The notes beneath the pieces were generated by a model that searched no databases, had not been told where the DNA came from, and was given only the letters and a program-made list of their open reading frames with translations. Shown one piece after another: positions 6,691 to 15,565 of a DNA stretch of 24,399 bases. Position numbers and translations under genes: made by a program. The stretch comes from a virus: IMG/VR virus record IMGVR_UViG_3300025108_000376, positions 1 through 24,399 of that record. One strand, 5' to 3'. How positions within the stretch are numbered: position 1 is the first letter of the stretch; each line of letters starts with the position of its first letter.

Positions 6691-8019
6691 TTAGCCTCCT
6701 AGAAATTCTTTACGTTCTTCTTCCGACATCACATTCTGCCAGTGGTTTTTCCAATCCGCATCAGTCAGGAACCGATCTGGCATTGGATTTGGCGGCACTT
6801 GTAAGATAGTGGGCTTTTCAGGAACTGTACCTTTAAAGCTAAAGTCTGGAATAACCAACTGAGGATCAAGACCAGCTTGCCTTGCAAATTCTGTGTATTG
6901 ATTGGCAATGGATTGGTATTGCTCTTGTGCGCCACCATACAGGCGACCCGCGCGATCTACAAAGTCTGCTCTTTGTGTCTCCGTTAGGCGCGTCCCTTCC
7001 CTTACTTGATTGTAAAGACTTCTTACGCGCTCATCTACACCACCAGAATTTTGCGCTGTAGCAAACTCACCTTCACGCACAACAGACCCGGGATCAAGCA
7101 CCTTCATAAAGTTAAAGATCAAAGCCAAATCACCCGCAGGTGATGGGTCATCCGCTGACCGTACCACGCGCGAATAAGCAAAACTAACATCTGAGAAATC
7201 TTTTACGGGAGCTAGTCCTGTAAACTCTTTACGCGCATCAACAACCATCTTGTTCATGTCAGACTTGGAAACGCCGCCCTTCATCATCTCTTGCATATAC
7301 AAAGACATTGCGGTTTTTGCGTCATATGCACCTGTTTGCAACCCTTGCAGCACCATTGCCGCAACACGGTCACCAGCACCTGCGCGCTTTGTCAGTGTAT
7401 CAATTGTTTTATTCTTTGACTGCGTCTGTAAACGTCTAGCACCAGATGCTCTCAACTGCTCACCCATGCGCTGGTTAGGAGCCAACAAAGGATCAAGTGC
7501 AGCGCCGAAACGCTCCATTGCTGTCATCCCTGTTTCTTCGTCTGGTCTGCGCATGATGTCCATGAAACCTAGTAGGCCAGTGCGTTGGGGTGCATTTGGG
7601 TTCATACTCATGTTCATATCCTTTGGCTTTGATTGTGGCCCTTTATAGCCCTGCCATGCGCCAGTGCCTTGTGTCTGGTAAATCCACTGACCAACCTTGT
7701 CTTGTGTCGCCTTATCAAACTTCTGATTTGGGTCTAAATTCAGCGCCTTTACTGCGTCACGCAGCGTTGAACCAACAACCTGATAAGCACCTACTGGTGT
7801 CGCAACGCCCATCTCTGGGTCTGGTCTAGCTGATGCAACATACTGTCCGTATTCACCGCGAGGGTCTGTAAACCCCAATACATCCGCGATGCTCATATCA
7901 GTTACCCGAACATCAGAGAATATACCACTAGGACGGTTTTGATAGTTAAACAGAGCGTTGTAATCACCCCCGCTCTCACCTGCGAAAATACCGCGCTGTA
8001 TGTCAGACCAGCTTGCCAT
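6691..8019 (-). CDS. Internal virion protein with N-terminal lysozyme/transglycosylase-like domain
   Basis: A 442-residue protein. The first 130 residues have a lysozyme-fold signature: IFAGESGGDYNALFNYQN at 11-28 with Glu15 as the likely general acid, a glycine-containing ATPVGAYQVVGSTL at 73-86, FDKATQDKVGQWIY at 101-114, and GAWQGYKG. This pattern is that of muramidase-like domains found on many phage virion proteins. It would locally open peptidoglycan during entry. The remaining 310 residues are helical and charged without a recognised domain, which fits a structural ejection part. It lies between the Ala/Gln-rich repeat protein and the glycine-zipper protein, with stops and starts one or two bases apart. 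It is unlikely to be the lysis endolysin, since no holin is nearby and the domain is embedded in the virion cluster. Confidence 0.82.
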   Translation of the reverse strand: MASWSDIQRGIFAGESGGDYNALFNYQNRPSGIFSDVRVTDMSIADVLGFTDPRGEYGQYVASARPDPEMGVATPVGAYQVVGSTLRDAVKALNLDPNQKFDKATQDKVGQWIYQTQGTGAWQGYKGPQSKPKDMNMSMNPNAPQRTGLLGFMDIMRRPDEETGMTAMERFGAALDPLLAPNQRMGEQLRASGARRLQTQSKNKTIDTLTKRAGAGDRVAAMVLQGLQTGAYDAKTAMSLYMQEMMKGGVSKSDMNKMVVDARKEFTGLAPVKDFSDVSFAYSRVVRSADDPSPAGDLALIFNFMKVLDPGSVVREGEFATAQNSGGVDERVRSLYNQVREGTRLTETQRADFVDRAGRLYGGAQEQYQSIANQYTEFARQAGLDPQLVIPDFSFKGTVPEKPTILQVPPNPMPDRFLTDADWKNHWQNVMSEEERKEFLGG

Positions 8020-9681
8020 TTATCTTCCAAACATTGCTGCGGTTTGTAAGTAGTTCAGGAAGCCCGGCTGGAATGAGCTAGTCTGACCTGATGGAACGCC
8101 TGCGCCAGTAAGTGCGCCTAGAAACGTATTCAAGCCACCTGTTGGTGCGCCTGTATATTGACCAAAGTTCTGCTGACCTGCACCAATTAAGCCTTGCATG
8201 ATGCCACGCTGCATTGCGCCTTGCTGCATTTGCTGCTGCTGAATTGATTGGCCCATGTTGAACTGCTGCTGACCCAAACCTGCTAAACCACTTGCCGCGC
8301 CTTGGCGAACGCCTGCGCCAGTAAACTGGCCTTGGAAGTTAGCTTGGTTTGCTGCTTGCTGGCGACCCGCTTGAGCTTGAAGCGCTTGGTTGATTGCAGC
8401 TTGGTTTGATAGACCCGCAGCCTGCGTTAGGCCAGCCTGTTGAGCGGCTCGTGCTGCGTCTTGTTGCGCTGCCGTTATACCTGTTGCTTGCGTTAGACCA
8501 GCTTGCTGTGCCGCCCTTGCCGCATCTTGTTGTGCTGCGGTTATACCTGCCGCTTGCGTCAATCCAGCCTGCTGTGCTGCTGCTGCATTTTGCGCTGCAA
8601 TGCTTGATAGACCAGCTTGCTGGGTCAAGTTCGCTTGTTGTGCTGTTGCTGCGTTTAATGCAGCCATGTTTGCTTGACCTGCTTGCTGCTCAAGTTGCGC
8701 TTGCGTCTGTGCAAACTGATTGGCGGCTTGCATATTGCCAGATCGTGCTGCCTGCTCACGAGCCGCTGCCGCTTCACGAGCCTGCTGACCAAGTTGGCTT
8801 GCTTCAAAACCTTGCTGAGATGCAAGTGTGCGAGCCGCTTGCGTTTGACCAATATCAAACTTGCCGCTCTCAACGGCTTGCTGGAACCCTGCTTGGCGCT
8901 GCTGCGCTGATAGCTGACCCGCTTGACGTAAAGCCTCACCAGCCAAAACACCTTCTTGCACAGCTTGACGCGATCCGCCAAACGCACCCGCTTTTTGCGC
9001 CTGTGATGCAAGGTTTTCAGATGCCATTTGTCTTTGACGCTCAATGTCGGCCTGACCCGCCTCTATCACTTGCTGCTGATAGGGGTTCATGTATGTGGAT
9101 ATGTCTTGCGTCTGCAAGCGATCCACAGCGATTTGATCAGGCGCTTGTGCCGCTTGTACAGCCCCAACAGATTGCATTCTTTCTGCTGGGCTTAGTTGTG
9201 CAGCTTGCATCTGTGAGGTTGGGCCAACCTGCGCTCCACCAAAAGTCACAGCAGGGGCTACAGTAGCTCCGCCATATGCTTGCGTTTTCTCAACTGTTGC
9301 ACCGCCATATGCAGGCGTTCTCTGAACCGTTGCGCCACCGTATGTTGCCGTTGGGCCTGCCCGTGCAGCTTGCATCTGCTGTGGAGTAAATTGCGATAAA
9401 CCACCCATCGTTTGTTGCGCCTGACCTATAGACTGCGCAGACTGCTGATAGATGTTAGGTTGAGTTTGAGATTGTGGGCGAGAAAGAGGAGTATTGGCGG
9501 GATTACGCGGCATAACCGCTCGCTGTGCGCCCATGCCGCCATAACCTGTACCCATGGTTGGATTGTATACATTTTCTGGGCCTAAGTTTGTGGGCCTTTG
9601 CACACTTCCTGTTGGTGTGCTTCCACCTTGTCCCGCTAAACCGCCGCTTGGAAGTCTTTGTCCACCTGCTGATGCACCCAT
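8020..9681 (-). CDS. Ala/Gln-rich virion protein with tandem repeats, candidate ejection protein
   Basis: A 553-residue protein of very low complexity. Residues 1-110 are Gly/Pro/Gln-rich and probably disordered. Residues 114-157 are four 11-residue YGGATV units. Residues 196-240 hold a motif I recognise from many marine phage virion proteins: YMNPYQQQVIEAG, DIERQRQMASENL, then AGAFGGSRQAV. The stretch 250-440 is an Ala/Gln helix with 22-residue repeats at 350-437. The end has GFLNYLQTAAMFG. Its helical, repeat-rich nature fits a protein that unfolds or stretches during DNA delivery, but no activity is shown. It starts behind a good AGGAG site, and is followed immediately by the lysozyme-domain gene. 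Confidence 0.75.
   Translation of the reverse strand: MGASAGGQRLPSGGLAGQGGSTPTGSVQRPTNLGPENVYNPTMGTGYGGMGAQRAVMPRNPANTPLSRPQSQTQPNIYQQSAQSIGQAQQTMGGLSQFTPQQMQAARAGPTATYGGATVQRTPAYGGATVEKTQAYGGATVAPAVTFGGAQVGPTSQMQAAQLSPAERMQSVGAVQAAQAPDQIAVDRLQTQDISTYMNPYQQQVIEAGQADIERQRQMASENLASQAQKAGAFGGSRQAVQEGVLAGEALRQAGQLSAQQRQAGFQQAVESGKFDIGQTQAARTLASQQGFEASQLGQQAREAAAAREQAARSGNMQAANQFAQTQAQLEQQAGQANMAALNAATAQQANLTQQAGLSSIAAQNAAAAQQAGLTQAAGITAAQQDAARAAQQAGLTQATGITAAQQDAARAAQQAGLTQAAGLSNQAAINQALQAQAGRQQAANQANFQGQFTGAGVRQGAASGLAGLGQQQFNMGQSIQQQQMQQGAMQRGIMQGLIGAGQQNFGQYTGAPTGGLNTFLGALTGAGVPSGQTSSFQPGFLNYLQTAAMFGR
8371..8634 (-). repeat. Four 22-residue (66-bp) coding repeats
   Basis: Residues 350-437 of the Ala/Gln-rich protein are four units of 22 residues. 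The middle two (372-393, 394-415) are nearly identical, reading AGLTQA[A/T]GITAAQQDAARAAQQ in two pieces with only residue 7 changed; the outer two are degenerate. A 22-residue period equals six helical turns, so the units can stack as a long continuous helix. The near identity of the inner pair suggests recent unequal duplication. Confidence 0.85.
9211..9342 (-). repeat. Four 11-residue (33-bp) YGGATV repeats
   Basis: Residues 114-157 consist of four units starting at residues 114, 125, 136 and 147, each Y/F-G-G-A-T/Q-V followed by a variable five-residue tail. The exact 11-residue spacing and the fixed aromatic-Gly-Gly core suggest a repeated turn-strand element. The DNA copies have diverged at third positions, so the repeat is kept at protein level. 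Confidence 0.83.
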
Positions 9682-10545: not shown

Positions 10546-11201
10546 CCGTGCATCCTCGTGATGTGCAGCGTAGTCGCTGGTGCCGCTGGGCTAAATGAAG
10601 TTGCCGCAGACGCATCCAAGAAGCCTGACGTGCCATCCACCGCCCACATGACCTGTAATTCATCGCCAGCCGCCACATCAAACTTGGCAGAACGCGAAAC
10701 AACCACTGTCGCGTCATTCTGGTGTAGCGAATAGATGATCGTATTGTTTGGCGCATCCGTGCCGTTCAGGCGAGGCCAGAAGTAAAACCTCACCGTGCTA
10801 GATGACGTTGACGAAATCTGCGCTGAAAACATCAGTAGATACTCGCCAGCCTCGCTAAACACGATCTTGCTGTTGTCTGTCGCATCCCGATCTATGCCAA
10901 CATTGCCGCTTGGCGCATCGTACGTTATTGCGTACGCCGTATCTGCTGCTGCAGCAGTAACATCCGTTGTGCGGTAAAACGAGGCGTGACCGTCCTCTAA
11001 GACGATCTGCACAAACGCACCATCCTTGGATACAACAGGATACTTGTATTCACGATCCCATAAGATAACGCCATCTTCTGCCGCGCTGTCATAATCGCGT
11101 CTGTGCGTAAGAAAAGAGCGTGTCCTCATAAGCCACGCACTAAACTTCTCTGCCCATACCTTAAAATCTGGGCCTATTGGGGGCGCACCATAGAAACTCA
11201 T
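10542..11201 (-). CDS. C1q/TNF-like jelly-roll virion protein
   Basis: A 219-residue protein. Residues 1-75 form a linker with a helix (FKVWAEKFSAWLMRTRSFL). Residues about 75-215 read as alternating beta strands of a C1q/TNF-like jelly roll: SKIVFSEAGEYLLMFSAQIS, VRFYFWPRLNG, NTIIYSLHQND, KFDVAAGDELQVMWAVDG and a last strand ATTLHITRM. The pairing of 'F-x-x-x-G-x-Y-L-L-M-F-S-A' with 'V-x-x-G-D-x-L-x-V' is the classic C1q-like layout. Such domains trimerise and bind surface ligands, so a receptor-binding or fibre-attachment role next to the nozzle is plausible. It overlaps both neighbours by 4 bases. Confidence 0.66.
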   Translation of the reverse strand: MSFYGAPPIGPDFKVWAEKFSAWLMRTRSFLTHRRDYDSAAEDGVILWDREYKYPVVSKDGAFVQIVLEDGHASFYRTTDVTAAAADTAYAITYDAPSGNVGIDRDATDNSKIVFSEAGEYLLMFSAQISSTSSSTVRFYFWPRLNGTDAPNNTIIYSLHQNDATVVVSRSAKFDVAAGDELQVMWAVDGTSGFLDASAATSFSPAAPATTLHITRMHG

Positions 11202-12706
11202 CGTTTGCTACCCTGCCGCGCATCAAGACGCATGACACCCACACGCCAATCCGCTGCCTCTGCACCCTCAACGCGCATTCTAACCTGACGACCTTGGAAG
11301 CGTACAGATGTTGGGTTTGCCGTGTTAAATGGCCCCTTTTCTGTTTCCGTTGCATTCGGGTAGTTGCGCACCTTAAACTTCAAATCCACATCGCCCTGCG
11401 TTTTTTCATCAGGTATGACGTTGGTGACTTTCATCAGACGCTCACCAGTGCCAATGGCAATTGGGCCTGTCTCTGCGTATGGTGTCGCCCCATCATAATC
11501 AAAACCAACTTCATGCTCATACACAACGCCATCTGATTTAACCAAGAACGGCAAGCGGAATACGCCGCGATCCACACCCGCAGTGCGATCCATGTCGCCA
11601 GTTGACCAGATGTTTTCAACGTAATCATATGCAACGTACTTGTCGCATTCATCGCTATCCTGTGATTGATACACCCACCAGACTTCATTCCACTGGCTGT
11701 TGACCATAGCCTGCACCTTAGATGCTTGGTCATAATTGATATTACTAAATACCAGATCAGCGACCTCGCACGGTATTTCGCGCACTTGACCGCCAGAATA
11801 GATGAAGAAGCCACGACGACCCATCCAGATCACGCCAGCGTCAACAGATGCATATGCACCCGCCGCAATCAATCCACACGCCGTACCGACACGCTCAAAG
11901 CCGTATACAAACGGTGGGCCTTGGTATGTCATTGTATGCGCGTCTTGGTCTGTAAGGATCAAAGACTGACCGCGTGTGCGTACACCCGCTAGGATCGTGC
12001 CGTTGGTTTGCAGTTCAATGTCACCAGCTTGGTTTGTCGCCGCCGCTGTCCATGTGTTGTAATCTTCCTGATCTGACCATGCCACACGCTTTGAAGATGA
12101 CTGAGACACGCTGTAATCCGCTGCAAGAGCCACCAAGAAGCGTTCCTCTGTTACGAATGTCGCTGTGCAGCCCGTAGGCGCGTTTGTGACCGCCGTTAGA
12201 TCGTTGGCTGTTTCCAAGTCCCATGAGTAGATAACGCCATCGTCAGACGAACATGCGATTAGTTCCTCACCCCAGTTATCTAGTGACCATGTAGTTGCGC
12301 GTAGAATAGAACCTAAGTCTGGACGCGCTACGCCCCAACCAAACAAGCCCCAGCCACCTGAACCCCAGCCAGTGTTGACCGTTGCATCTACGCGGCCCGT
12401 TGTAAGTGCGCTGGGTGTAATGTCTGCCGTAATAGAGCTTTCCAGCATAGCTGTCACAGTGTCGTGCGATCCGAATGCAGCGAAACGCTCACCGTCATTG
12501 TCTACCCAACAATGGACACCGCGAACAACACCGCCAGCATCTACTGGGCTATTATCGGACTGTGCGCGTGGCCTCCAACCGCCAATCGGACGCAAGGCAT
12601 CCTCATGCCAACGCACTAGGTTTACGTCACGCCAGCGACCCTGAGATTGATACTCTGTGCCGTTTGCGTACTGCCCCTTGGGGATGTTTAGCGGGACTAA
12701 AGACAT
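11198..12706 (-). CDS. Tail nozzle protein, P22 gp10-like
   Basis: A 502-residue protein whose length and composition match the P22 gp10-type nozzle that stacks under the adaptor and closes the portal channel. It has many beta blades: GGVVRGVHCWVD, FAAFGSHDTV, the tryptophan-glycine segment at 113-125 (GWGSGGWGLFGWG), KRVAWSDQEDYNTW at 206-219, and QSLILTDQDAHTM. Further on are GVIWMGRRGFFIYSGG and DKYVAYDYVENIWS. This order is typical of the propeller-like nozzle family in marine podoviruses. The first codons overlap the end of the kinase/nucleotidyltransferase gene by 10 bases. It is placed between that enzyme and the C1q-like gene, supporting a tail-tip location. Confidence 0.78.
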   Translation of the reverse strand: MSLVPLNIPKGQYANGTEYQSQGRWRDVNLVRWHEDALRPIGGWRPRAQSDNSPVDAGGVVRGVHCWVDNDGERFAAFGSHDTVTAMLESSITADITPSALTTGRVDATVNTGWGSGGWGLFGWGVARPDLGSILRATTWSLDNWGEELIACSSDDGVIYSWDLETANDLTAVTNAPTGCTATFVTEERFLVALAADYSVSQSSSKRVAWSDQEDYNTWTAAATNQAGDIELQTNGTILAGVRTRGQSLILTDQDAHTMTYQGPPFVYGFERVGTACGLIAAGAYASVDAGVIWMGRRGFFIYSGGQVREIPCEVADLVFSNINYDQASKVQAMVNSQWNEVWWVYQSQDSDECDKYVAYDYVENIWSTGDMDRTAGVDRGVFRLPFLVKSDGVVYEHEVGFDYDGATPYAETGPIAIGTGERLMKVTNVIPDEKTQGDVDLKFKVRNYPNATETEKGPFNTANPTSVRFQGRQVRMRVEGAEAADWRVGVMRLDARQGSKR

Positions 12707-13479
12707 ATAGAAACTCCCATTGATTTACGAATTTCCGTTCCAGACACAGATTGTATATCTTCATTGAAAAACTCTTGCTCAATAGTATACCCTACTTTTC
12801 TGCCATATGTAATATTTGTTACATTAGGAACACGTTGGACAACGTATTGACCTTGGTAGAACGGCTCTAAATCACGGTCTATAAAATCTTTTACAGTTTT
12901 AAAATCAAAGGGATTGTTAGAGTTGGTGCCGCAGCAACCACGAACTTGTATCACAACCTGCCCTGTCTTTTGAACGGCTCTATCAAATAAAGCCCTGTGA
13001 CCTGTATGCCAAGGTTGCCATCTACCAAGCATTTGAACAGTGTCTTTAGTCCAATCAAACTCAGGTCTGCGCTTGTTTTCTTTAATATAGCTTGCAATAA
13101 ATAACGCCCATTTTTCAGCGTTTTTTTCTGTAATCCTAAAGTCGTAATGAGAAGGCTTAGTGAACATTTTATTCGTGTCTTCAAAACGACTTTCAAGTAA
13201 CGTGTCTACCCAAACGATCCAATCTGCTGAAAACAAATTTCTAAACTCGTCAAGAGGTGCAACAAAATCGGCAATGACGTAGTTAGCACTGGAAGACTTG
13301 CATAAGTCTCTCATGCGTTTCGCTTGACGCAATCTGCCGCTATAAGAAAAGTCCCAATCATTAGCCATTTCTCGCACAACATCTGCATTATATAGCTGTG
13401 CGCCTAAATGCCCCTGCAGAGCTTTAGCTAAAGTTGTCTTCCCTGAATTGGGAAGCCCCATGATAAGAACGCTAACCAT
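12697..13479 (-). CDS. APS-kinase-like plus HxGH nucleotidyltransferase two-domain protein
   Basis: A 260-residue fusion. Residues 1-130 are an APS-kinase-like P-loop domain: Walker A GLPNSGKTT (8-16), YNADVVRE in the place of the kinase D-G-D-x-V-R, DWDFSYSGRL matching the 'DLGFS' region, DFVAPLDEFRNLF matching the 'SFISPxxxDR' strand, and a WVDTLLE strand (90-96). Residues about 146-255 are a nucleotidyltransferase: GRWQPWHTGH with His158/His161, NNPFDF, and SGTEIR at 246-251. The first motif resembles NMN adenylyltransferase (GRFQPFHxGH) more than ATP sulfurylase (QTRNPxHRAH), while the kinase-then-transferase order matches animal PAPS synthase. Likely makes an activated nucleotide such as PAPS, possibly for the nearby sulfotransferase. 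The precise substrate is unresolved. NadR-type NAD salvage is the main alternative, although NadR has the domains reversed. Confidence 0.75.
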   Translation of the reverse strand: MVSVLIMGLPNSGKTTLAKALQGHLGAQLYNADVVREMANDWDFSYSGRLRQAKRMRDLCKSSSANYVIADFVAPLDEFRNLFSADWIVWVDTLLESRFEDTNKMFTKPSHYDFRITEKNAEKWALFIASYIKENKRRPEFDWTKDTVQMLGRWQPWHTGHRALFDRAVQKTGQVVIQVRGCCGTNSNNPFDFKTVKDFIDRDLEPFYQGQYVVQRVPNVTNITYGRKVGYTIEQEFFNEDIQSVSGTEIRKSMGVSICL

Positions 13480-13484
13480 TTAAA

Positions 13485-13967
13485 TTAAGGCTTTGTAGGC
13501 CAGTCAGCATCTTCCAAATTGGGCCAGTTGGCGTGTGTGGTTATGTCACGCAATGCTTGGCGGTAATCTGCCCATTCAGAAGATAGAGTGTTATCACTCA
13601 ACGCCATCCAATCAGTTTCAGCTAAAAGCGCATCTCGCTTTTCACGACCAGCACTTTCAGCAGCAGCAGCCGCTTTTACTGCAAGCTCCGCGATTAAGGC
13701 TTCTTTTTCTTCAGGAGTATATTTCTGCACAATTTCCCATTGCTGCACAAAAACACCGTTATTCTCAACAGGGGGTAGCTCCCTAGCTTCCTCAAACTGA
13801 GAGTTATATTCCTCTGGGTCAGCCAACTGAAAGGGTGCAAATCCGTACTCCCTAACGTTTACGTTAGACATATCTGCGGGAAAGCTGACGTTTTTATTTT
13901 CAAAACGTATGCGCTGAACCGCGAGAGGCCATTCTATCGGCGTATCGTTTTCTAATTTAACATACAT
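13485..13967 (-). CDS. Tail-fibre assembly chaperone-like protein
   Basis: A 160-residue protein. The N-terminal half is a short 'MYVKLENDTPIEWPL' lead with RENK-type charged strands and ADPEEY. The C-terminal half has the family hallmark KRDALLAETDW (about 109-119), then ALSDNTLSSEW, ADYRQALRDI, and WPTKP at the end. The 'R-x-x-L-L-x-x-T-D-W ... Y-R-Q-A-L-R-D' pattern marks phage tail assembly chaperones (PF16778-like). These help trimerise or fold a fibre, usually encoded next to it. Here it lies between the sulfotransferase and the kinase gene, near the glycine-rich adhesin, which may be its client. An Ala-rich helix at about 95-108 is a likely linker. Confidence 0.8.
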   Translation of the reverse strand: MYVKLENDTPIEWPLAVQRIRFENKNVSFPADMSNVNVREYGFAPFQLADPEEYNSQFEEARELPPVENNGVFVQQWEIVQKYTPEEKEALIAELAVKAAAAAESAGREKRDALLAETDWMALSDNTLSSEWADYRQALRDITTHANWPNLEDADWPTKP

Positions 13968-13979
13968 AGTGCTTTTCTC

Positions 13980-14756
13980 CTATATCACACGCAAACCATC
14001 ATACAACGCATTCGTCATTTCGTCACTTATTTGCTGAATATTTTGGGGCAGGCCAATATTATTCTCACGAAACTTTATTTCTTGCCTAACCTCATGCATA
14101 CCGACAAGGCCGTACACATCATCATTTTCAACAAATACCTGCTTTATCGTATCAAAGTCGTGCGCAAAGGGATCAATCTCACAATGCTCATATATTTTCT
14201 CTAATACCATAGAAGGATTTTCTACAAGTGATTTGTATGTCACAAACAAAAACCCCTCATCACGAATGTATTTGGCATATTTAATGCCTTCAAGAGGCAA
14301 GGTAAGCGGGTCTGTATTTGGCAAAAGAAGGTCTGTATACACATCACCGACCCAACCGTTATCTAACCTAAGTTTTGCAAAAGACCTTACAATTTCATCT
14401 ACGGGACGAATTAAAACAACCACTTTTGGATTTTCATCTATGTAACGCTTTATCATCTGATGGTTTTCATAGAGCGTCCAAGTACGACATTTATCAAAGA
14501 CAATATCCTTGCTGACAGACTTATAATACAAAGCGGGAAGCTCTGTCATAATATCCTTGCTAGTTTCCTCTAATCTGCGACTTGCCTTTAAAGCGTCTTC
14601 TGCTGGGCCATTTATTGAACACTGCATATCCCACATCATCTGACATAAAGCAGAACGCCCCTCTGAGTACACAGAAGGGTTCTGCATCAAAATGTTTGAA
14701 AGCAGCGTAGAGCCTGTTCGCGGCAGTCCACTTATATAGCAAAGTCTTTGCTTCAT
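13980..14756 (-). CDS. PAPS-dependent sulfotransferase
   Basis: A 258-residue protein with the standard sulfotransferase motifs. Residues 10-19 (GLPRTGSTLL) form the 5'-phosphosulfate-binding loop. Residues 113-126 (VVLIRPVDEIVRSF) form the 3'-phosphate site with Arg117 and Ser125. Residues 171-194 contain FVTYKSLVENPSMVLEKIYE, the conserved helix near the C-terminus. It would move a sulfo group from PAPS to a hydroxyl or amino acceptor in the infected cell's cytoplasm. The acceptor cannot be read from sequence: a fibre, the glycine-rich adhesin, or a host polysaccharide are all possible. It is preceded directly by the glycine-rich adhesin gene (stop and start share a base, TAATG) and followed by the chaperone gene. 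No signal peptide or membrane segment is seen. Confidence 0.88.
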   Translation of the reverse strand: MKQRLCYISGLPRTGSTLLSNILMQNPSVYSEGRSALCQMMWDMQCSINGPAEDALKASRRLEETSKDIMTELPALYYKSVSKDIVFDKCRTWTLYENHQMIKRYIDENPKVVVLIRPVDEIVRSFAKLRLDNGWVGDVYTDLLLPNTDPLTLPLEGIKYAKYIRDEGFLFVTYKSLVENPSMVLEKIYEHCEIDPFAHDFDTIKQVFVENDDVYGLVGMHEVRQEIKFRENNIGLPQNIQQISDEMTNALYDGLRVI

Positions 14757-15565
14757 TACGGAGTGCCAACATCCGTAGTTGGAAACTGGCGTGTATCGCC
14801 CGGGAAAATTATCCGCACGGCACCATTCGCTCCCGCCGCGTTCCCTGCTCCGTTGGCTTGCGTTGACTGTCCACCTTTGCCAACAACTACTGTGTAAGAT
14901 GTGCCGGGGCTAACCGTTATGTTGTTTTTATAAGCTAATCCGCCGCCGCCGCCACTTTTATAGCTTGTAGAGCCGAATGCCCCACCGCCACCGCCAAAGT
15001 AGCCCGGTGAGCCGTATTTTGCAAAAGTGCCGCCGCTACCGTCACTACCGCCGCCACCGCCGTTGACACTAGCTGCCGTACCACCAGCACCGCTAGTGCC
15101 TTCTCCAAAAACATTAACACCGCCACCAGCAGACCATCCAAGGCCACCGCCGCCGCCACCACCAGCACCGCCGCCGGAACCTGCTGTTCCCGCAACATAA
15201 CTGCCACCGCCGCCGCCGCCGTTACCAGAGTAGCCTGCCGCACCGCCGCCACCACGGCTTCCGCCTTGACCGCCACTGTTGTTAGCATCACCGCCAGATG
15301 CAGTGCCGCCAGCATTGGTTGCATTGTTGCCAGCCGCGCCGCCATTAGCCTGAACGACTGTGCCTCCCACCGTTATTTTAGATAAACCACCAGCTTCTGA
15401 TCCAACAACATGACCTGAACCTCCTGCACCAACAACAACAACGCTAATAGACGTTACTCCATCGGGGCATGTCCAAGAATATGTCCCTGGAACTGCAAAT
15501 AAACTTTCACCTCTAGGCACTTCGTCTACTCCTCCTACCATTAAAGTTTTTTTCCAACTACTCAT
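14756..15565 (-). CDS. Glycine-rich tail-tip adhesin
   Basis: A 269-residue protein. The N-terminal 60 residues are a small beta domain (SLFAVPGTYSWTCPDGV, TSISVVVVGAGGSG) typical of phage glycine-rich domains. Residues about 70-210 are a glycine-dominated region with runs of five to seven Gly separated by Ser, Asn, Tyr and Phe. This resembles the polyglycine-II sandwich of T-even type gp38 adhesins, where glycine helices support variable loops that recognise receptors. The end (NGAVRIIFPG, RQFPTTDVG) is a marine-phage terminal signature. It has an AGGAGA site before the ATG at 15565. Receptor recognition is inferred from fold similarity. GCC/GGC codon richness makes this region GC-heavy compared with its neighbours. 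Confidence 0.82.
   Translation of the reverse strand: MSSWKKTLMVGGVDEVPRGESLFAVPGTYSWTCPDGVTSISVVVVGAGGSGHVVGSEAGGLSKITVGGTVVQANGGAAGNNATNAGGTASGGDANNSGGQGGSRGGGGAAGYSGNGGGGGGSYVAGTAGSGGGAGGGGGGGLGWSAGGGVNVFGEGTSGAGGTAASVNGGGGGSDGSGGTFAKYGSPGYFGGGGGAFGSTSYKSGGGGGLAYKNNITVSPGTSYTVVVGKGGQSTQANGAGNAAGANGAVRIIFPGDTRQFPTTDVGTP

Follow-up and report, generated by a model that had tools for sequence, protein, structure and literature searches.

Which nucleotide does a phage enzyme make when its kinase half and its nucleotidyltransferase (NTase) half appear to point to different substrates? The question is raised by a gene at positions 12697 to 13479 of a phage contig whose whole 24,399-nt stretch (IMGVR_UViG_3300025108_000376, positions 1 to 24,399) is the window analyzed here. 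An earlier sequence-only reading of the window had described the first half as similar to APS kinase and the second as NMN type, and had left three options: a divergent PAPS synthase, an enzyme that restores NAD against NAD-depleting immunity, or a source of a new activated nucleotide. The evidence collected below favors a PAPS synthase of unusual ancestry.

A kinase-NTase gene in a phage late operon

The open reading frame lies on the minus strand, begins with ATG, and encodes a product of 260 amino acids (Table 1). Its neighbors are tail-fiber, tail-assembly, and structural genes. The gene starts 5 bases past the tail chaperone gene, and this short gap, together with the 10-base overlap with the structural gene at its other end, places it in a tight late operon. 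The motifs GRWQPWHTGH and SGTEIR, on which the sequence-only reading was built, were verified on the DNA exactly where it had put them.

Table 1. Features of the kinase-NTase gene and of its neighbors in the window
Feature	Coordinates	Strand	Basis or remark
Predicted PAPS synthase: N-terminal APS kinase (aa 1-138) and NMNAT-type HxGH NTase (aa ~146-256, candidate sulfurylase)	12697..13479	-	Pfam, PDB profile, AlphaFold model, structure comparison
P-loop GLPNSGKT, aa 8-15	13435..13458	-	ORF translation, member alignment, DNA check
NADVVR, aa 31-36	13372..13389	-	Invariant across 31 members; D33 and R36 correspond to M. tuberculosis CysC D480 and R483; N31 in place of D478
DFVAP, aa 71-75, equivalent to the FISP motif of APS kinases	13255..13269	-	Alignment with 2yvu and PAPSS1; F72 and P75 invariant
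Lid motif SRFEDTNKMF, aa 97-106	13162..13191	-	Shorter than CysC lid; R98 and K104 invariant
GRWQPWHTGH, aa 152-161, NMNAT-type HxGH signature	12997..13026	-	DNA check, PDB matches, member alignment
Arg180, candidate anion (sulfate) ligand	12940..12942	-	Invariant; stands where NadM has a Gly-rich "GSxx" turn
YGRKVGY, aa 225-231, family hallmark that follows the deletion of the NMNAT segment	12787..12807	-	R227 invariant
SGTEIR, aa 246-251, SxTxxR motif	12727..12744	-	SATxIR in most members
Sulfotransferase, 258 aa, presumed PAPS user	13980..14756	-	Sulfotransfer_3, PF13469, E 8.4e-13; two genes upstream of the 12697-13479 gene
Tail-fiber assembly chaperone (Phage_tail_APC), between sulfotransferase and 12697-13479 gene	13485..13967	-	Present in sibling phages without both sulfur genes
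Glycine-rich tail/fiber protein, directly upstream of sulfotransferase; speculatively, a sulfation target	14756..15565	-	
Virion structural protein, downstream; overlaps the end of the predicted PAPS-synthase gene by 10 bases	11198..12706	-	phrog_3287, E 1.3e-81

Full-length proteins with the same kinase-then-NTase order are encoded by five isolated phages (Stenotrophomonas phages Suzuki, Bhz60, and DLP_6, Xanthomonas phage AhaSv, and Clavibacter phage 33), and at least 598 IMG/VR stretches carry relatives, indicating that the pairing of the two domains is not due to chance. A search of the open-access literature found no paper on this family.

The kinase half is related to APS kinases

The N-terminal half matches the Pfam family APS_kinase (PF01583; E = 2.5e-5, 24.8 bits against a cutoff of 21.1), as do all 35 aligned members, and its best sequence match in the PDB is APS kinase 2yvu. 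When the family profile is compared with the PDB, APS kinases come first for this half (2yvu, 1.6e-14; human PAPSS1, 4e-13). The full-length AlphaFold model, with a mean pLDDT of 87, likewise resembles APS kinases most closely in structure (4fxp, Z 17.6, rmsd 2.2, 138 aligned), the best match of another kind being gluconate kinase 1ko1 (Z 15.1). Profile and structural matches together bear out the earlier assignment of this half.

In Mycobacterium tuberculosis CysC, Asp480 contacts the ribose of APS, Arg483 the phosphate and sulfate, Phe492 the adenine, and Arg497 the sulfate and adenine (PMC4373884). The counterparts of these residues, which we mapped from motifs, are D33, R36, F44, and R49, and all four are invariant in 31 members of the family. 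The phage kinase thus has the fold, the P-loop, and the APS-contacting residues of CysC but differs from it in a DGD motif that reads NAD (the first Asp replaced by Asn, the second kept), in a short lid, and in a score below the cutoff of the CysC equivalog TIGR00455 (19.2 versus 138.7 bits).

The NTase half is NadM/NMNAT-like in descent

The C-terminal half gives a weak match to CTP_transf_like in Pfam, and its best PDB sequence match is the NMN adenylyltransferase (NMNAT) 2qjt. Sequence profiles of this half also retrieve NMNATs from the PDB (2qjt, 7.5e-10; 1f9a, 1.5e-9), and the same search returned no ATP sulfurylase at E ≤ 1; in Pfam, the ATP sulfurylase family PF01747 gave no match. Profile-profile alignment with hhalign yields 98.9% against six phage NadM proteins and 30.8% against 14 ATP sulfurylases. 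Neither approach puts the domain inside the ATP sulfurylases, an outcome that would have removed the conflict between the halves, and the NMN-type reading holds: judged from its sequence, the NTase is NadM/NMNAT-like in descent and not ATP-sulfurylase-like. It scores far below the equivalog cutoffs for NadM (TIGR01527, 22.9 versus 181.2 bits) and for NadR (TIGR01526, 23.0 versus 341.15 bits), whose domain order is the reverse.

The NadM/NMNAT signatures GRFQPFHxGH and SxTxxR are present in the NTase, the former as GR[WFY]QP[WF]HxGH in all family members aligned, and the QxRNPxHxxH motif of ATP sulfurylases is absent. Only the first of these signatures is informative here. GRxQPxHxGH discriminates NMNATs from ATP sulfurylases, as had been argued, whereas the C-terminal SGTxxR-type motif, cited in the same argument, is found in both families.

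Because the structural search with the full-length model covered only the kinase, the C-terminal domain was modeled alone (pLDDT 89). The model aligns with NMNAT 1ej2 (Z 11.5, rmsd 2.6, 111 aligned), with CoaD within about one Z unit. NMNAT and CoaD are on the list of structural matches and ATP sulfurylase is not, although absence from this list does not exclude a family.

NadM and archaeal NMNAT are the closest relatives of the NTase in both fold and sequence, but the family differs from them in its acceptor region. The domain is short, and strands usual for the fold are missing from it; 16 residues separate strand 3 from the GYxV segment compared with 41 in 1f9a, a loss of about 25. The deleted segment contains a Trp that all six phage NadM proteins have; of 40 family members, 39 lack it, and in the remaining one it falls within the YGR motif. 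In archaeal NMNAT this Trp stacks on the nicotinamide. The acceptor site of the family should be smaller. Eleven positions of the NTase half are invariant in 31 diverse members (G152, R153, Q155, P156, H158, G160, H161, R180, G226, R227, and R251). R180 and the YGRxVGY motif set the family apart from NadM, and R180 and R227 are candidate anion ligands. Further, the family differs from NadM in having neither a Nudix nor an NAMPT partner.

Sulfotransferase genes lie close to the family gene in phages

A sulfotransferase gene occurs within 3 kb of the family gene in 11 of 69 nonredundant phage loci. The density is 0.029 per kb near the family gene and 0.002 per kb at 3 to 8 kb (p = 6e-4), and the positional signal persists after stricter dereplication (p = 0.005 at 75% and p = 0.03 at 60%). 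As a control, 75 loci around a portal-adaptor gene (640 kb) contained one sulfotransferase. The partners are of several kinds: a 258-aa protein, a 242-aa protein whose gene overlaps the gene start, a Sulfotransfer_4 protein in Casjensviridae, and a 717-aa protein in a Bradyrhizobium MAG. PF13469 exceeded its cutoff in 3 of 41 large-phage records carrying the family; most large phages are without such a gene, and a sulfotransferase partner is therefore not universal. A general rule on sulfotransferases in phages is unsupported by this whole-large-phage frequency, the signal being one of position.

Siblings of the window phage within its genus show how the two genes travel. Some of them (among them L290, L285, and L286) keep the fiber, tail chaperone, and structural proteins, the downstream structural protein of L290 being 98% identical to that of the window phage, and lack both the sulfotransferase and the family gene. 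Since these two genes flank the chaperone, they were probably gained or lost together at two sites. Another sibling, L300, has a sulfotransferase (7948-8754) at the same site and no PAPS-synthase-like gene in the stretch examined; this phage may rely on host PAPS. In three Casjensviridae loci (L001, L003, and L004), the family gene is immediately preceded by a NADAR gene and a Sulfotransfer_4-like gene.

The NTase takes the place of sat in SAR11 aprBA operons

"Candidatus Pelagibacter ubique" has AprBA, cysC, and cysQ and is missing sat and cysDN, and SAR11 bacteria have been described as having APS reductase but no sat or cysDNCHIJ, the fate of APS being left unclear (PMC5069961). The text of that paper lists cysC as missing and its Table 3 shows it as present; the gene counted there may be the kinase of this family. 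A genome scan found the family to be widespread in SAR11 (Pelagibacteraceae). There, adjacent separate genes usually encode the kinase (~135 aa) and the NTase (~124-125 aa), and the two are sometimes fused.

In 17 SAR11-family genomes that were read, the NTase gene is inside a QmoC-like-aprB-aprA operon, with no kinase gene alongside in 12 of them. AprA and AprB were assigned by NCBIfam equivalogs, with scores well above the cutoffs (1000 versus 642 bits and 194 versus 136 bits, respectively). Four other alphaproteobacterial loci (L423, L425, L426, and L427) have the canonical order sat-QmoC-like-aprB-aprA. The NTase therefore takes the place of sat, beside the enzyme by which sulfite is converted to APS.

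Co-occurrence across genomes points the same way. Among 118 SAR11-family genomes, 47 have both aprA and the NTase, 7 have aprA only, 13 have the NTase only, and 51 have neither (p = 1e-13, with kinship of the genomes ignored). When the genomes are split into three size bands, the association is significant in every band (p = 8e-5, 3e-4, and 3e-5), so genome incompleteness does not explain it. A canonical ATP sulfurylase (Sat or CysD) was found in 13 of the 118 genomes; only 3 of these are among the 54 that carry aprA, leaving 51 aprA-carrying genomes in which none was detected, in agreement with the published gene content of "Ca. P. ubique."

The canonical and NMNAT-like enzymes also interchange elsewhere. 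A pyruvate-kinase-like gene adjoins a canonical ATP sulfurylase in L347 (with APS kinase) and L351 and directly adjoins the NMNAT-like family in L344, L352, and L354. The SAR11 locus L342 has a phage-type sulfotransferase ahead of canonical CysD-CysNC, and in phages such sulfotransferases accompany the NMNAT-like family. All five loci with the pyruvate-kinase-like gene are SAR11 surface-glycan islands, and the substrate of its product may be a sulfur compound.

Other SAR11 observations are less favorable. Many SAR11 genomes have the kinase/NTase pair away from aprBA, in a methyl/C1 gene region. The association of sulfotransferases with the pair in SAR11 is modest (p = 0.0007). Incomplete genomes confound it, and the aprA test is much stronger. 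In a tree of the NTase, the SAR11 sequences fall into a single clade (100/99) that also includes one phage sequence; the window NTase clusters with sequences from phages (100/98) and shares 50 to 53% identity with the NTases of apr operons. Any function assigned in SAR11 would thus be carried to the phage protein at ~50% identity, and this distance is the chief gap in the argument.

SAR11 aprBA operons (L356, L359, L361, and L368-L391) regularly include genes for a QmoC-like membrane protein and a CADD-like protein (TIGR04305), the latter present also in the 17 genomes described above. A GD_AH-family gene pair, possibly encoding sulfolactate lyase SuyAB, is found beside the aprBA-NTase operon of L356 (150-1612) and suggests a source of sulfite. 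One or two large genes (~700-780 aa) stand between kinase and NTase in L386 (6428-11730), L102, L115, L140, and L152.

A compact PAPS synthase is the favored reading

We propose that the protein encoded at 12697-13479 is a compact PAPS synthase whose sulfurylase half comes from an NMNAT-type ancestor, and we put the probability of this reading at about 0.78. The analysis shows domain ancestry, conserved residues, operon positions, co-occurrence, and co-acquisition; catalysis at each step, the way each reaction runs, and what is sulfated are inferred. Operon position and co-occurrence are what suggest a sulfurylase function for the NTase. In the proposed route, the C-terminal NTase would adenylate sulfate (ATP + sulfate → APS + PPi), and the N-terminal APS kinase would phosphorylate the 3'-OH (APS + ATP → PAPS + ADP), PAPS formation by the kinase pulling the unfavorable sulfate adenylation. 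The sulfotransferase encoded two genes upstream would then use PAPS on a target in the virion (tail fiber) or on the cell surface. In SAR11, AprBA would form APS from sulfite and AMP, and the sulfurylase reaction of the aprBA operon, from APS and PPi to ATP and sulfate, would fall to the NTase, with or without the kinase.

The earlier option of a divergent PAPS synthase survives in part: genomic context favors a PAPS synthase, but not one with a divergent ATP sulfurylase, as an NMNAT-type fold appears to do the sulfurylase step. With somewhat less confidence, we lean toward the wider proposal that the NTases are a third, NMNAT-derived family of ATP sulfurylases, which completes SAR11 sulfite oxidation via APS, and that phages carry a fused minimal PAPS synthase for sulfation of their own virions or of the host surface. 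New here would be the enzyme family for the first step; the reaction itself is known.

The protein combines features of several known systems. Like metazoan PAPS synthases (PAPSS1/2), it has APS kinase first and an HxGH adenylyltransferase second in one chain, and the sequence-only reading was right that this order is the reverse of that in NadR. Unlike PAPSS, in which the second domain is a PF01747 ATP sulfurylase with an N-terminal PUA-like domain, the phage protein has an NMNAT-type domain of ~115 aa and a total length of 260 aa. With Sat (PF01747) and CysDN, the NTase shares the predicted reaction and the position next to QmoC-like-aprBA but no detectable sequence match, and it would be a non-orthologous replacement. 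NadR also joins a kinase to an HxGH NTase, but its kinase is RNK and that of the phage is an APS kinase.

If the proposal is true, a new ATP sulfurylase family arose from NAD-biosynthesis enzymes, and many phages encode their own PAPS supply, which with adjacent sulfotransferases would make a complete sulfation route. A role in PAPS synthesis would replace the role in NAD restoration that automatic annotation would suggest. SAR11 bacteria rank with the ocean's most abundant cells, and an NTase in the sat position offers a direct and testable answer to what becomes of APS in the absence of sat and cysDN.

Alternative readings explain less of the evidence

The best-surviving alternative, which we nonetheless regard as improbable, is that the NTase adenylates a different small acid, such as a phosphonate, sulfonate, or carboxylate, and that the kinase adds a 3'-phosphate to give a PAPS analogue. 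Adenylation followed by 3'-phosphorylation is a general scheme, also used by CoA synthase, and sequence inspection places the family gene near a PEP-mutase-like gene in one SAR11 island. The kinase keeps its contacts to the sulfate of APS as invariant residues, however; AprBA and sulfotransferases are APS and PAPS enzymes; and the equivalent PEP-mutase island (L350) and the pyruvate-kinase-like islands contain canonical ATP sulfurylase and APS kinase. A new activated nucleotide is superfluous for explaining the data.

Less probable again is NAD salvage by a NadR with swapped domains, in which the kinase would phosphorylate nicotinamide riboside and the NTase adenylate NMN, restoring NAD against NAD-depleting defenses. 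This would agree with the nearness of NadM in sequence and fold, with the GRxQPxHxGH signature, and with the NADAR-domain gene that precedes the family gene in Casjensviridae phages, but NADAR is limited to the three loci named above and the kinase is not RNK-like. Partial N-terminal queries, able to detect one another at 39% identity, picked up no NAMPT in 163 phage loci (1.86 Mb), whereas an NAMPT- or NAPRT-annotated gene is next to or near three of the six phage NadM genes that were read. Since the Trp segment is deleted, the search of the 163 loci gave no NAMPT partner, and the partners found are sulfotransferases and APS reductase, the NAD-restoring, anti-defense option is disfavored.

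FAD synthetases also belong among the HxGH enzymes, and AprA is a flavoprotein; an NTase that supplies AprA with FAD or another cofactor, apart from any sulfate activation, is nevertheless very unlikely, for it leaves the fused APS kinase, the sulfotransferase partners, and the sat position in related operons unexplained. Least credible of all is a protein in which the kinase alone matters, acting on host APS, and the short, strand-deficient NTase is vestigial or regulatory, because HxGH and SxTxxR are kept throughout and 12 aprBA operons have the NTase but no kinase gene beside it.

Further observations on the phage loci

A short membrane protein gene resembling DUF2061, recognized by motif and not by profile, adjoins the family gene in about 12 loci, including L027, L043, and L048 from marine phages. 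A link between DUF2061-like genes and cysC was suspected, and a literature search gave it no support. The homologue in Clavibacter phage 33 (OR548257.1) matches with the identity, and at the place, seen for Stenotrophomonas phage Bhz60, and the two genomes are similar in size; Clavibacter may have been recorded as the host in error.
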